Assembly (NCBI RefSeq): GCF_002868845.1
Contig: NZ_PKUB01000048.1
Coordinates: forward strand, 102,247 to 152,171
Reading direction: 5' to 3'
Source of the DNA: Desulfuromonas sp.
Lineage (GTDB): Bacteria; Desulfobacterota; Desulfuromonadia; Desulfuromonadales; BM501
DNA: 49,925 nucleotides
A program made the position numbers and the translations under genes. Shown here piece by piece: positions 40,219 to 46,734 of the stretch (positions within the stretch are counted from its first letter, which is position 1; each line of letters starts with the position of its first letter). The notes beneath the pieces are model-generated. The model had not been told where the DNA came from. It was given only the letters and a program-made list of their open reading frames with translations, and did no database searches.

Positions 40219-42627
40219 TTAAGGCTTTTTCCCGCCGAGCAATTTCTTGATTTTGGCCACCGCCTCCAGGGCGTCCACGGCGTAGAGGTCGGCGCCGATG
40301 GTGTCGGCGTAGTCCTGCGTGACCACGGCGCCGCCGACCATGGTGAAGACCTCGATTCCGGCCGCCCGTAATTCGGCGATGGTTATTTCCATCTGGTTGA
40401 GGGTGGTGGTCATGAGGGCGGAGAGGCCGACCGCGTCCACCTCCAGGGCCCTGGCTTGCTCAACGATGCGCTCCGCCGGGACGTTTTTTCCCAGGTCGAC
40501 GACCTCGAAGCCGTAATTCTCCAGCAGGGTGCAGACGATGTTCTTGCCGATGTCGTGGATGTCCCCCTCGACGGTAGCCATGAGGATCTTGCCCAGGTCG
40601 GGCGCGTCCCCTTTGCGCATCTCCGGCTTGAGGCGGGCGAAGGCAGTCTGCATGGTCTCGGCGGAGAGCATGACCTGGGGGAGGAACATCTGCCCGCTTC
40701 CGAACCGGCGGCCGACCTCCTCGAGTCCGGGCAGCAGGCCCTCGCTGCTGATCGCCAGGGGGGCGATGCCCTCCGCCAGGGCCTTCTCCACCAGTTGTTC
40801 GATGCCCTCCCGGTCACCTTCAAGAACGGCGGCGGCCAGCGCCTCCCGTATTCCCAGGGGCTCCCCCCCGGTACGGGGGGACGCTTCGGGTGGCGGCGCC
40901 TGGCCGTAGATTTCCACGTAGGTCTCGGCGCGAAGATCCCGCCCCAGCAGGACCATGGCCGCCCGGTAGGCGTCCATCATCCGCTCGTCCTTGGGGTTGA
41001 TGATGGCGGCACAGAGGCCCGCCTCCAGGGCCATGGCGAAGAACGCCGAGGAGAGGACCGGGCGCCGGGGCAGGCCGAACGAGATGTTGCTCACCCCCAG
41101 AACGGTGGCCAGGCCAAGCTCTTGCCGCACCCGCCGCAGCGCCTCGAGGGTCTGCAACGCCTGGTCCTGCTCGGCGGAGACGGTCAGGGCGAGGCAGTCG
41201 ATGATCACGTCCTCTTTCGGCAGGCCCGCTTCGCGGGCCGCCTCGAGAATCGTGCGGGCGACCTGCAGGCGTCCCTCGGCGGTCTTGGGGATGCCCTTGC
41301 CGTCCAGGGCCAGGCCGATGACAGCGGCGCCGTACTTGCGGGCGAGGGGAAGGACGGCCCGCAGGCTCTTCTGCTCCCCGGAAACGGAATTGATCAGGAC
41401 CTTGCCGTCGGCCGCCTTGAGTCCCTCCTCCAGGGCCGCCGGATCGGAGGAGTCGAGCACCAGGGGGGCGGCCGTCGCCCCGGAGGCGGCGAAAACGGCC
41501 CGGCGCATGGCGGCGGGCTCGTCCACGCCCGGCGCTCCGCAGTTGACGTCGAGCAGGGCCGCCCCGGCGGCGGCCTGCTCCTGGGCCTCGCGGCGGACGT
41601 AGGCTGTCTTGCCCTCCCGCAACTCGGCGCTGTAGAGCTTCTTTCCGGTGGGATTGATGCGTTCTCCGATGACGGCGCAGGGCGCCTCGCCCCCGATCGG
41701 CACCACTGCGGTGCGGCTGGAGAGAATGCACCGGCGTGGCGGGGCCGTCCAGGAGAGATCTTTCCCCTCGAGGGCCCCGCGAATGGCGCGGATGTGGTCC
41801 GGCGTGGTGCCGCAGCAGCCGCCGATGACCCGTACCCCCAGGGCGAGCATCCGGTCGTGGTAGGCGGTCATCTCCTCCGGGGTTCCCGGGAAGACGGTCT
41901 GGCCGTCCCGCAGGGCCGGCAGGCCGGCGTTGGCCTGGGAGATCAGGGGGAGGGAGGTCACCGAGCGCATCCTCACCAGCAGTTCATAGATCCCCTCCAC
42001 GCCGAGGCCGCAGTTGGAGCCCACCAGGTCGATGCCGAGGGCCTCCAGGGTGACCGCCGCGGCTTCGGGCGGAGTTCCCAGCACGGAGCGGCCGCCGTCG
42101 TCGAAGGTCATCAGGGCCATGACCGGCAGAGCCGAGAACTCTTTGCAGGCCACCACGGCGGCCCGCAGTTCCCGAATGTCGAGGAAGGTTTCCAGGGTGA
42201 CCAGGTCCGCGCCGGCCTCGTTGAAGGCCCGGACCTGCTCGCCGAAGATCTCCACCATCTCGTCAAAACCCGCGTCTCCCACCGGCTCAAGGAACCGGCC
42301 GGTCGGCCCGACCGAGGCGGCCACGAAGGACGAGTCGCCCGCGGCCTTGCGGGCCAGTTCCACCGAGCGGGCGTTGATCTGCCGCACCCGGTCTTCCAGG
42401 CCGTAGTGGGCCAGCTTGACCCGGCTGCCGCCGAAGCTGTTGGTCACCAGGATGTCGGCGCCGGCCTCGCGGTACTCCCGGTGGATCGATTCCACCACCT
42501 CGGGAGAGGTGAGGTTCATCTCTTCGGGGCAACCGCCGGCCTTCAGGCCGCGCTCCTGGAGCATGGTACCCATGGCTCCGTCGAGGACGAGAACCTTTTC
42601 CCGTATCGCCTGTCGAAAATCAGCCAT
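40219..42627 (-). CDS. metH: Cobalamin-dependent methionine synthase lacking the reactivation domain
   Basis: This 802-residue enzyme methylates homocysteine from methyltetrahydrofolate via cobalamin. The homocysteine-binding domain (about 1-290) has LDGAMGTMLQERGL and the zinc cysteines Cys206 and Cys271-272 (IGGCCGTTPDHI). The pterin-binding domain (about 315-560) contains GERINPTGKKLY and DVNCGAPGVDE. The B12 cap and binding domains (about 595-802) contain GLEEVGRRFGSGQMFLPQV and the cobalamin ligand motif DIHDIGKN (His691). The C-terminal SAM-dependent reactivation domain of E. coli MetH is absent, as in many anaerobes. It starts 1 base after the GerMN gene and shares its operon with murI. 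Confidence 0.94.
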   Translation of the reverse strand: MADFRQAIREKVLVLDGAMGTMLQERGLKAGGCPEEMNLTSPEVVESIHREYREAGADILVTNSFGGSRVKLAHYGLEDRVRQINARSVELARKAAGDSSFVAASVGPTGRFLEPVGDAGFDEMVEIFGEQVRAFNEAGADLVTLETFLDIRELRAAVVACKEFSALPVMALMTFDDGGRSVLGTPPEAAAVTLEALGIDLVGSNCGLGVEGIYELLVRMRSVTSLPLISQANAGLPALRDGQTVFPGTPEEMTAYHDRMLALGVRVIGGCCGTTPDHIRAIRGALEGKDLSWTAPPRRCILSSRTAVVPIGGEAPCAVIGERINPTGKKLYSAELREGKTAYVRREAQEQAAAGAALLDVNCGAPGVDEPAAMRRAVFAASGATAAPLVLDSSDPAALEEGLKAADGKVLINSVSGEQKSLRAVLPLARKYGAAVIGLALDGKGIPKTAEGRLQVARTILEAAREAGLPKEDVIIDCLALTVSAEQDQALQTLEALRRVRQELGLATVLGVSNISFGLPRRPVLSSAFFAMALEAGLCAAIINPKDERMMDAYRAAMVLLGRDLRAETYVEIYGQAPPPEASPRTGGEPLGIREALAAAVLEGDREGIEQLVEKALAEGIAPLAISSEGLLPGLEEVGRRFGSGQMFLPQVMLSAETMQTAFARLKPEMRKGDAPDLGKILMATVEGDIHDIGKNIVCTLLENYGFEVVDLGKNVPAERIVEQARALEVDAVGLSALMTTTLNQMEITIAELRAAGIEVFTMVGGAVVTQDYADTIGADLYAVDALEAVAKIKKLLGGKKP

Positions 42628-44324: not shown

Positions 44325-44642
44325 ATGACCGAGTTTTTCCAGTTGTTCCAGACCGAACGGGTTCTGGGCTACATGCAGCAGTGGCAGATCGGGGACCTGA
44401 TCCGCAACCCGTGGTTTCTGGGCGGGATGGCCCTGCTGTGCCTGATCTCCCTGCTCCTGAAGTGGCGCATCCTGCTGGCCACGGTCGTCAGCGTTACCGG
44501 TTTCGTCGGGCTCGTCTCCTACACCCTCGGGCAGGAGACCAACCTCGAGAGCATGTCCAGCGACACCCTTCTGGTCTTCGTCGGCGGCGGGGTCGCCCTG
44601 GTCATGGTGGTCATCTACCTGCTGTTCATCAAGGCGGACTGA
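44325..44642 (+). CDS. Small two-helix membrane protein of unknown function
   Basis: This 105-residue protein is not recognised. It begins MTEFFQLFQTERVLGYMQQW, then shows two or three membrane spans (WFLGGMALLCLISLLLKW; ILLATVVSVTGFVGLVSYTL; TLLVFVGGGVALVMVVIYLLF). A good ggaggggg ribosome-binding site precedes the ATG. It is 37 bases before the HgdB-like gene and probably in the same transcript. A partnership with that gene is inference only. Confidence 0.7.
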   Translation: MTEFFQLFQTERVLGYMQQWQIGDLIRNPWFLGGMALLCLISLLLKWRILLATVVSVTGFVGLVSYTLGQETNLESMSSDTLLVFVGGGVALVMVVIYLLFIKAD

Positions 44643-44679
44643 CCCCCTTACGGCCCTTTCCCCTTTTCTCGCGTTGTCC

Positions 44680-45660
44680 ATGGTCGGTTTTACCACAACC
44701 ATTCCCATCGAAGTTCTGATCGCCGCCGGCCGCCGGCCGGTGGACCTCAATAATATTTTCATCACCGATCCCGAGCCCGGGCGGCTCATCGAGGAAGCGG
44801 AGGTCGCGGGGTTTCCCCGCAACATCTGCGGCTGGATCAAGGGGCTCTACGGGGTCACCCTGAGGCGCGGCATCCGCGAGCTGGTCGCTGTCACCGAGGG
44901 GGACTGCTCCAACACCCAGGCGCTGATGGAGGTGCTGAGTCTGCACGGCGTGAAAACCGTCCCCTTCGCTTTCCCCTATGACCGCTCGGCGGCGACCCTT
45001 TCCCACGAAATCGACAAGCTGGCCGGCGTTTTCGGCGCCTCCTCCGAGGGTGTCGAGGAGGCCCGGAGGCGCCTGCAGAAGGTGCGCAGCAAGGTCCACG
45101 AGGTTGACCGCCTGACCTGGGAGGAGGACCGGGTCACGGGAGAGGAGAACCACTACTACCAGGTCTGCACCTCGGACATGAACGGCGACCCCGACGCTTT
45201 CGAGGCCGAGGTTGACGCCTTTCTCGCCGAGGCCCGCCGGCGCCCTCCCATTCAGGATGCTCTGCGCCTGGCCTATATCGGGGTGCCCCCCATTGTCTCC
45301 GGCCTCTACGAAGCCCTCGAGTCCCTCGGGGCCCGGGTGGTTTTCAACGAAACCCAGCGCCAGTTCTCCATGCCCTACGCCACCGGGGACCTGGTCGAGC
45401 AGTACCGGCGCTACACCTATCCCTACGACATCTTCACTCGCCTGGAGGACATCGAGGAGGAGATCGCCAAGCGGCGGGTGGACGGCGTCGTGCACTACGT
45501 GCAGGCTTTTTGCTTTCGCCAGATCGAGGACATGATCGTGCGCCAGCGGTTGGGGGTGCCGGTGTTGACCCTCGAGGGGGACCGGCCCGGTCCCCTCGAC
45601 GCCCGGACCCGGATCCGCATCGAGGGCTTCGTGGAAATGCTTCGTGCGAGGAAGCCATGA
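44680..45660 (+). CDS. Single-subunit 2-hydroxyacyl-CoA dehydratase D-component-like (HgdB-like) protein
   Basis: This ~326-residue protein is related to the HgdB/FldC/BcrC family of iron-sulfur proteins: FTTTIPIEVLIAAGRRPVDLNN near the N-terminus, AVTEGDCSNTQALMEVL, and the C-terminal HYVQAFCFRQIEDM and LTLEGDRPGPLDARTRIRIEGF. Cysteines at 50, 76, 163 and 278 are candidate cluster ligands. Classical dehydratases need two different subunits plus an activator; here there is only one subunit gene followed by the activator, as in the double-cubane-cluster proteins (YjiM/DCCP type). It is shorter than those (~380-420 residues). Its stop overlaps the ATPase start (ATGA). The ATG at 44680 is used; no ribosome-binding site is obvious, so it may be translated by coupling to the upstream gene. 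Confidence 0.85.
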   Translation: MVGFTTTIPIEVLIAAGRRPVDLNNIFITDPEPGRLIEEAEVAGFPRNICGWIKGLYGVTLRRGIRELVAVTEGDCSNTQALMEVLSLHGVKTVPFAFPYDRSAATLSHEIDKLAGVFGASSEGVEEARRRLQKVRSKVHEVDRLTWEEDRVTGEENHYYQVCTSDMNGDPDAFEAEVDAFLAEARRRPPIQDALRLAYIGVPPIVSGLYEALESLGARVVFNETQRQFSMPYATGDLVEQYRRYTYPYDIFTRLEDIEEEIAKRRVDGVVHYVQAFCFRQIEDMIVRQRLGVPVLTLEGDRPGPLDARTRIRIEGFVEMLRARKP

Positions 45661-46430
45661 CCGGGCTCGGCATCGACCTGGGCAGCCGTCAGGCCAAGTT
45701 CGCCGCCCTGGAGGGCGGGGAGGTCCTTTGGCTGCGGGATTTCGAGACCATTCCCTTCTACAAGCGCTTCGCTTCGATGCGCGAGGGGGTGTTGAACCTC
45801 GATTTCGCGGCCATGGACCTGTTCGACGGGCCGCCTCCGGCCGCCCTTTCAATCGTCGTGACCGGCTACGGCCGCAACACCCTCGGGCTGGAGGGGGCGC
45901 GGGTGGTTCCGGAGATCCAGGCCCATGTGCAGGGGGTCCGGTTTCAGACCGGATTGACCACCTTCACCATGCTCGACCTGGGCGGCCAGGATTCCAAGGT
46001 GGCCCGGGTGGAGAACGGCATCCTGATGGACTTCGTCATGAACGACAAGTGCGCCGCTTCCTCCGGCCGCTACCTGGAGAACATGGCCAAGGTCCTCGAC
46101 CTCTCCCTCGAAGAGCTTTCCCGCCACCACCGCGACCCGGTCCCCCTCGACGCCACCTGCGGCATCTTCGGGGAGAGCGAGCTGATCGGCAAAATCATCG
46201 AGGGACACTCCCTGGAGCGGCTCTGCGCCGGGGTCAACAATACCCTTATCAAGCGGGTGGCCCCCATGCTGCACCGTTTTCCCCAGGACACAATCGTCCT
46301 TACCGGGGGGGTGGCCAAAAGCGCCGCCTTCCGGGAGCTCCTCCGGGAGTCGACCGGGGCCGGGATCGTCGTCCCGGAGCACCCCCAGCACAACGGCGCC
46401 CTCGGCTGCGCGGTCCTGGCCGGGAAATGA
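45657..46430 (+). CDS. HgdC/BadF-BadG-type ATPase activator
   Basis: This 257-residue protein is an ASKHA-fold ATPase that drives low-potential electron transfer into a dehydratase-type partner. Motifs: LGIDLGSRQAK (phosphate 1), VVTGYGRNTL, LDLGGQDSKVARV (phosphate 2), LTGGVAKSAAFRELL (adenosine). The bridging [4Fe-4S] cysteines are Cys132 (NDKCAASSGRYLE) and Cys168 (ATCGIFGESEL). In the homodimer these ligate one cluster between subunits. It overlaps the HgdB-like gene by four bases, so the two are partners. The reaction and electron donor (probably a ferredoxin) are not known. Confidence 0.92.
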   Translation: MTGLGIDLGSRQAKFAALEGGEVLWLRDFETIPFYKRFASMREGVLNLDFAAMDLFDGPPPAALSIVVTGYGRNTLGLEGARVVPEIQAHVQGVRFQTGLTTFTMLDLGGQDSKVARVENGILMDFVMNDKCAASSGRYLENMAKVLDLSLEELSRHHRDPVPLDATCGIFGESELIGKIIEGHSLERLCAGVNNTLIKRVAPMLHRFPQDTIVLTGGVAKSAAFRELLRESTGAGIVVPEHPQHNGALGCAVLAGK

Positions 46431-46467
46431 GGGGCCGTCCCCGCGACTTCAACGAAAGGTAAAAGGC

Positions 46468-46734
46468 ATGGCATTCAAAAAGCGCGACTGGATCTTTATC
46501 GTCCTTGTCCTCGGCGTCTTCGGCACCTTCTACGCCCTGACCGGCGAGGAGAAGACCTCCAAGGTCCCCTACGACGACATCCACGCCAAGTTCTACCCCA
46601 TCGTCAAGGATGAGGGGAAGAAGGCCGCGGAGAAGTTCTGCAAGGAGTGCCACGGTCCGGACGGAATCGCCTTCTCCGCGGAGCACCCCGACCCGATCCG
46701 CTGCCTCTTCTGCCACAAGCTGCTGCCGCGCTGA
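46468..46734 (+). CDS. Small membrane-anchored dihaem cytochrome c
   Basis: This 88-residue protein has a basic start (MAFKKRDW), one hydrophobic segment (IFIVLVLGVFGTFYALTG, residues 9-26) that probably anchors it, and a periplasmic part with two haem c sites: CKECH at 58-62 and CLFCH at 79-83. It is followed directly by a terminator, so it closes the unit that includes the HgdB/HgdC-like pair. Whether it takes part in electron transfer with that pair is unknown, since they would be on opposite sides of the membrane. Confidence 0.85.
   Translation: MAFKKRDWIFIVLVLGVFGTFYALTGEEKTSKVPYDDIHAKFYPIVKDEGKKAAEKFCKECHGPDGIAFSAEHPDPIRCLFCHKLLPR

Follow-up and report, generated by a model that had tools for sequence, protein, structure and literature searches.

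The 49,925-nucleotide stretch of Desulfuromonas sp. DNA analysed here (contig NZ_PKUB01000048.1, positions 102,247 to 152,171 of the forward strand; hereafter the window) carries two overlapping genes, one for an HgdB-type protein of the HGD-D family and one for an HgdC-type ATPase. We found that the HgdB-like protein has the superfamily fold, that it retains three of the six cysteines shared by most of its relatives and has lost the other three, that it can do without a second subunit, and that the two genes come and go together at this site. We lean towards reading them as an ATP-driven electron-injection pair, a pared-down form of the BCR, HAD and DCCP systems with a single cubane and a small, polar, probably non-CoA substrate. 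The pair and the codons of the three cysteines are located in the window as follows.

44680-45660, plus strand: HgdB-type (HGD-D) protein, 326 aa from the ATG
45657-46430, plus strand: HgdC-type ATPase (activase), 257 aa
44827-44829, plus strand: codon of invariant Cys50 of the HgdB-like protein
44905-44907, plus strand: codon of invariant Cys76
45511-45513, plus strand: codon of invariant Cys278

The two reading frames overlap by 4 bases (ATGA), and the frame of the HgdB-like gene is also open at an alternative TTG start at 44674; all gene calls followed our own open reading frame (ORF) rules, with no gene finder. The HgdB-like protein matched Pfam HGD-D (PF06050) with 125.1 bits over residues 6-321 (gathering cut-off 28.4), and at E<=0.01 its Pfam scan returned HGD-D and ATPgrasp_N only, with no match to DUF523 (TudS). 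The HgdC-like protein scored 109.9 bits against BcrAD_BadFG (cut-off 31.5) and 174.5 bits against the TIGR00241 activase model (cut-off 125.4). These results confirm the original prediction, made from the DNA letters alone, of an HgdB-family gene with cysteines at residues 50, 76, 163 and 278, directly overlapped by the gene for an HgdC-type activator.

Such a gene is no chance find, because HgdB-like relatives occur in 86 of the 297 genomes of the phylum (matches at E<=1e-10). A scan of genome contigs gave 119 relatives; the 80 that were kept lie in Desulfuromonadia, Geobacteraceae, Negativicutes (Sporomusa, Pelosinus), other Bacillota and Syntrophorhabdaceae, as well as in bins labelled Planctomycetota and Poribacteria; strains of Geobacter, Geomonas, Pelosinus and Sporomusa are among these carriers. 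The family also looks well bounded, since a 57-member profile scored 512.8 and 443.5 bits for the two members in a test set but no more than 41.9 for any of the 25 other HGD-D ORFs. One locus (L010, 2463-1501) has an in-frame TAG at about residue 88 and is either a truncated member or the result of a sequencing fault. Among the papers that our searches of the open-licence PMC literature listed, none had a title or abstract on this HgdB-like family.

Three cysteines in a self-sufficient subunit

We compared 95 distinct full-length family sequences, drawn from 109 matching loci: nine loci were excluded, of which three were partial and six carried a stop in the aligned stretch (in five of the six, among its final residues); six identical copies were dropped, and the window's sequence was added. 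Cys50, Cys76 and Cys278 were invariant in all 95. Cys163 was conserved in only 31 of them, and the four cysteines proposed earlier as a set thus shrink to three. This trio was kept in 136 of 141 loci (a total in which L111 and L134, which are one contig, are counted twice), the remainder being three truncated and two cysteine-free sequences. The 60 stretches that we fetched were of our own choosing among the 86 positive genomes.

An alignment of 14 family members with 25 other HGD-D rows, including YjiM and the DCCP of the window's own genome, contained six cysteine columns that were filled in 18 of the 25 other rows; the columns of the trio were filled in all 25. In the window's family the trio was present in 14 of 14 rows and the remaining three columns held a cysteine in none, the lost positions falling at T5, in a gap after N223-E224-T225 and in the stretch before T246-Y247. 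DCCP-type rows carry further cysteines beyond the shared six. Against the double_cubane model (NF040772; cut-off 350 bits), the HgdB-like protein scored 45.9 bits and the own-genome DCCP, our positive control, 488.4. It had been proposed that the window protein is itself a double-cubane protein with a DCCP- or YjiM-like [8Fe-9S]-type cofactor, and a common fold, a single subunit and a dedicated activator do speak for this. The three columns empty in every aligned member, together with the low model score, lead us to reject double-cubane membership, and we now regard that reading as extremely improbable.

The AlphaFold2 model of the HgdB-like protein was confident (pLDDT 94.2, pTM 0.92), and VIA-align matched it over nearly its whole length to BzdN (Z 32.2, 2.3 A, 311 residues), DCCP (Z 31.9) and HadC (Z 31.0) in the PDB, with further matches to MbdN (Z 30.0) and BzdO (Z 26.9); the BzdN and BzdO chains were distinguished partly by length. 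In the model, each cysteine of the trio is found at the N-terminal end of a helix or immediately ahead of it. The comparison with DCCP upheld a common fold in which the trio aligns, but not the other three shared cysteines, which are absent. The C-terminal half of the protein also matched MetH cobalamin domains at Z of about 6.5, which is middling by the tool's scale, and this match was not used.

In BzdNO, six cysteine thiolates bind the [8Fe-9S] cluster and three cysteines the catalytic [4Fe-4S]-OH2 cluster of BzdO, and loss of a sub-cluster is a published route to new activity in the superfamily (PMC11971306). From the description of BzdN and our alignment, the six shared columns would be the ligands of the DCCP cluster. 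Because three of these six columns are lost and the confident model matches BzdN, DCCP and HadC, our best prediction is one site-differentiated [4Fe-4S] cluster per subunit, held by three cysteines in the proximal place. The trio positions appear, by alignment, to coincide with the three-cysteine [4Fe-4S] site of HAD/BCR catalytic subunits, and the HgdB-like protein may work like the active site of a HAD or BCR. We also found 61 positions that hardly vary, whether or not an HgdC gene is linked; many of them are polar and near the lost cysteine columns, and the polar ones would line the cavity emptied of the second cubane.

Whether the protein requires a second HgdA/HgdB-type subunit encoded elsewhere could be judged from the genomes that carry it. 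The window's own genome encodes a second HGD-D protein on contig C16 (431 aa, the double_cubane positive control), with its own activator; this is a separate DCCP system. HGD-D searches covered 77 of the 86 positive genomes, and in 12 of these 77 no other HGD-D protein was found (G063, G287, G006, G027, G044, G059, G060, G110, G152, G214, G265 and G154). In 12 of 12, the sole HGD-D match coincides with the place of the family's own gene. Three of them (G063, G287 and G154) moreover have one HgdC each and no DUF2229 protein, and G287 is a one-contig genome. The DUF2229 proteins of more than 1000 aa in the searched genomes are presumably of the PlsA type. A sole HGD-D protein in 12 genomes indicates that neither a second HgdA/HgdB-type subunit nor DCCP is needed; we reject the second-subunit hypothesis on this ground, and the earlier claim of a single-subunit system held. 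The same genomes bear on another arrangement, a heterodimer with the own genome's DCCP or another HGD-D protein, in which the window protein would be the three-cysteine catalytic half and DCCP the electron store. The own genome has both proteins, and BzdNO pairs an [8Fe-9S] with a [4Fe-4S] subunit (PMC11971306); however, with 12 genomes, one-contig G287 included, having no other HGD-D protein, this arrangement is strongly disfavoured and in our estimate very unlikely.

Under the electron-injection reading, an electron, probably from ferredoxin, would reach the HgdC-type ATPase, which would be a dimer with one bridging [4Fe-4S] cluster and two cysteines per subunit. All 25 HgdC-type sequences that we aligned, the window's among them, have Cys132 and Cys168. 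Each monomer of an HgdC-type protein contributes two cysteines to the bridging cluster (PMC11574389), and Cys132 and Cys168 are the candidate ligands. The HgdC dimer would dock on the HgdB-like protein, itself a dimer in this scheme, and ATP hydrolysis would push a low-potential electron onto the cluster of the latter, a putative single cubane on Cys50, Cys76 and Cys278 whose fourth iron would be open. The room taken by the second cubane in DCCP would here be lined by T5, N24, N25, N223, E224, Q228, Y247, H272, Y273 and Q275. This pocket would take a small polar, probably non-CoA substrate, which would be reduced or dehydrated via a radical at the open iron.

Presence and absence of the pair at its site

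The following genes surround the pair in the window.

44325-44642, plus strand: small membrane protein, 105 aa, 2-3 hydrophobic segments by a simple hydropathy scan
46468-46734, plus strand: dihaem c-type protein, 88 aa, CxxCH at residues 58 and 79, one hydrophobic N-terminal segment
43301-44149, minus strand: presumptive MurI-like (glutamate racemase) gene at the flank of the site, named from its sequence
40219-42627: MetH-like protein, 802 aa, member of the conserved metH-gerM-murI flank

Of 117 genomes of the window's class, 40 carry the HgdB-like gene and 108 a relative of the dihaem protein (E<=1e-6). We inspected ten pair-less sites, all picked in genomes where the dihaem protein had a match. 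At all ten, the membrane-protein and dihaem genes adjoin and exactly the HgdB-like and HgdC genes are missing; the MurI gene is retained at eight. At one locus (L226) the pair is present and the dihaem gene absent. The HgdB-like and HgdC genes are thus present or absent as one unit at the window's site. Since the membrane and dihaem proteins stay neighbours where the pair is absent, we do not count them in that unit, in which the original prediction had placed both. What stands of its overall reading is a single subunit with its own HgdC-type ATPase; the double-cubane cofactor and the flanking proteins as unit members do not.

The same site also holds cysteine-free versions. In G225, G267 and G297, genomes of the same taxonomic order, the linked HgdC gene is missing, and the HgdB-like ORF is open (324-325 codons) and has no cysteine at the three positions; G267 and G297, of one genus, have a cysteine at position 49 instead of 50. 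In that lineage, the joint loss links the cysteines to HgdC and sets both apart from the membrane and dihaem proteins. The loci of such same-site orthologues, with no linked HgdC and all three cysteines gone, are L165 (7001-7975), L166 (7001-7978) and L219 (4934-5905). Those of L165 and L166 have open ORFs, are 46% identical and keep 32 and 34 of the 61 shared invariant residues. Relics and proteins with a new role are both candidate readings of these three orthologues.

The conserved flank raises a further alternative, that the pair reductively reactivates a corrinoid protein, above all the MetH-like protein encoded about 2 kb away. The metH, gerM and murI genes flank the pair in the class, metH and murI also occur in a locus of another class (L120), and ATP-driven reduction of corrinoids by an activating enzyme is known (PMC6739815). 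Yet 7 of the 10 pair-less loci still have metH in its place at the site, and the loci that we read in Geomonas and Bacillota showed no metH-type gene beside the family. The link to MetH is therefore not supported, and we give corrinoid reactivation very little credence. The 802-aa protein, judging by its length, may be without the reactivation domain.

Linkage to the activator and neighbours in other lineages

Across the family, the HgdC gene lies directly downstream in 78 of the 141 loci, and 6 loci end too soon. A more specific partner, HgdC of the type found in the window (P0002; at least 260 bits on the profile of that type), was found in 13 of 67 genomes and in all 13 beside the HgdB-like gene, the next best match scoring 198 bits. 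For lineages with no linked gene, we infer that another HgdC serves the HgdB-like protein in trans. Any HgdC was present in all 80 family-bearing genomes searched and in 73 of 80 family-less genomes (71 over the cut-off). These samples comprised 80 (any HgdC) and 67 (P0002-type) of the 86 positive genomes, and 80 of the 211 negative ones.

Several of our results weigh against an ATP-driven, single-cubane pair. First, the three-cysteine set is not special to the family, since 7 of the 25 other HGD-D rows (two of which, L183 and L196, are one protein) also have fewer than the full six cysteines. Second, 57 of the 141 loci had no HgdC match anywhere in the fetched stretch, and 53 of these 57 retain the cysteine trio and nearly all pocket residues, which implies that such lineages either rely on an HgdC in trans or have no need of ATP. 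Because 73 of 80 family-less genomes also have an HgdC, co-occurrence lends weak support to action in trans, and we set it aside as proof. Third, residue 47 is arginine in 77 of 77 linked sequences but in only 22 of the 53 unlinked, and conservation loosens at a few other positions too, as if a docking site had decayed where no HgdC is linked. Diversity is also higher among the unlinked sequences, whose mean identity is 51% versus 59% for linked. For this comparison of 77 with 53 sequences, six contig-edge loci, two cysteine-free loci and rows with at least 40 gaps were removed. HgdC adjacency switches at least 7 times across the tree, and the tree gives only 2 supported independent linked/unlinked pairs, too few to test R47, and R47 as a docking residue was dropped.

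The frequent lack of a linked HgdC is what would be expected if HgdC merely primed the cluster. This would be the case in sulfur transfer, in which the open iron would bind one more sulfide, giving [4Fe-5S] as in TudS and HadC, and exchange it with a small thiolated compound or a tRNA-thiolation enzyme. Some neighbourhoods fit such a role. In 4 of the 141 loci (L119, L125, L127 and L130), a PP-loop gene (PF01171), which we take to be TtcA-like, lies directly downstream with gaps of 3-15 bases. Presumptive Mrp-like and NifU-C-like genes follow the HgdB-like gene in L153, L159-L161 and L163. Four genomes of one family (f31; G154, G127, G226 and G027) carry an HgdC gene clustered with those for a DUF362 ferredoxin, an aminotransferase-V (desulfurase-like) protein, ThiF and ThiI/NFACT-R PP-loop proteins; this cluster spans 7186-13280 of L202, with the same order in L203, L204 and L205. 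No HGD-D partner was seen in the L202 locus, and its HgdC is the only one of G154. Chemical precedent comes from TudS, whose cluster, bound by three cysteines, goes through a [4Fe-5S] state (PMC10611767). On the other side, each of these neighbourhoods is limited to one or two related families, an HgdC locus of another f31 genome (L206 of G288) is without sulfur genes, the window protein has no DUF523 match, and an ATP-driven reductase partner linked in 78 of the 141 loci has no evident place in a sulfur transfer that is not a redox reaction. We consider sulfur transfer unlikely. We also think it rather improbable that an archerase-type site was released stepwise from ATP, with a dedicated HgdC in some lineages and none in others around the same pocket, leaving a homodimeric single-cubane enzyme whose work would be sulfur chemistry (tRNA thiolation or persulfide handling) and not CoA-ester reduction.

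Other neighbours differ from lineage to lineage. In Negativicutes the usual order is thioesterase, MurI, membrane protein, F420-ligase-like protein, HgdB, HgdC, hydantoinase-A-like, histone-deacetylase-like, RNase PH-like and RdgB-like proteins, where the names RNase PH, RdgB and MurI are presumptive, given from sequence; MurI-like relatives adjoin the family in Bacillota too. The F420-0:glutamate ligase-like gene (PF01996, N-terminal part, 41 bits; 7252-7923 of L088) lies just upstream of the HgdB-like gene and was a neighbour in 21 of 81 loci, mostly of Negativicutes. Elsewhere, depending on the family, the adjoining genes are the PP-loop gene (the 4 loci above), Mrp-/NifU-like genes, or TsaD/KsgA/TldD-like genes, several of these names again being presumptive. 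Genes for RNA and sulfur functions recur only within one or two lineages, and no neighbour set is common across lineages from which a mechanism could be read. In three genomes of one family (L113, L114 and L115), the HgdB-like gene is preceded by genes for a presumptive radical-SAM-like protein and then a 369-389-aa protein that, from its sequence, may be another HgdB-related (COG3580-type) protein.

Relation to known systems

By membership tests, the window protein belongs to HGD-D and not to DCCP, HAD or BCR. DCCP/DCCP-R (PDB 6eno, 7yyl, 7yzm; NF040772; YjiM/YjiL in E. coli) resembles the window's pair in having a single HGD-D subunit with its own HgdC-type activator, and the fold of DCCP matches almost the entire window protein (Z 31-32, rmsd 2.1-2.2 A), with Cys50, Cys76 and Cys278 aligned; it differs in the three further shared cysteines, and the match begins only at DCCP residue 70. 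HadBC (PDB 3o3m) with HgdC is alike in fold (HadC), in the aligned positions of the three cysteines of its cluster site and in an ATPase partner with two conserved cysteines, but it needs two genes where the window's family has one, and its subunits have 373-401 residues compared with 326. HAD and BCR are two-subunit enzymes, whereas here there is one HGD-D gene in the unit and, in the 12 genomes listed, one HGD-D protein in all. No acyl-CoA pathway genes recur beside the family in the loci read, save for a gene that is presumably acyl-CoA synthetase-like in some. BzdNO and MbdNO (PDB 8s02, 9g87) include the best structural match, BzdN, and BzdO is the model for a three-cysteine [4Fe-4S]-OH2 site; unlike the window protein, they are heterodimers with one [8Fe-9S] cluster and an aromatic CoA substrate, and identity is 13-21%.

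Two other relatives differ in architecture. TudS (DUF523) has three cysteines and an open iron (PMC10611767), as predicted for the window protein, but it is described as one superfamily domain (PMC11971306). The plasmalogen synthase PlsA is said to be a member of the BCR/HAD family (PMC12838417) and is, in contrast, a large multidomain protein. The published superfamily scheme comprises homodimers carrying two double cubanes, heterodimers that have one or none, and one-domain TudS (PMC11971306); a full-size, single-gene, single-cubane form does not appear in that scheme as its text describes it.

The window's pair is probably such a form, a single-subunit, single-cluster variant of the superfamily that would act as an ATP-primed enzyme on a small non-CoA substrate. 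If this is true, the pair would amount to a very simple radical or reductive enzyme primed by ATP, possibly free of CoA. The family is present across several phyla of anaerobes, and in its own class both genes are gained or lost together, as a cassette. The pair-less sites and the cysteine-free relics are natural knock-outs, so that function can be tested by comparing close species, and this compact two-gene cassette defines a clear family whose function is open to such tests.

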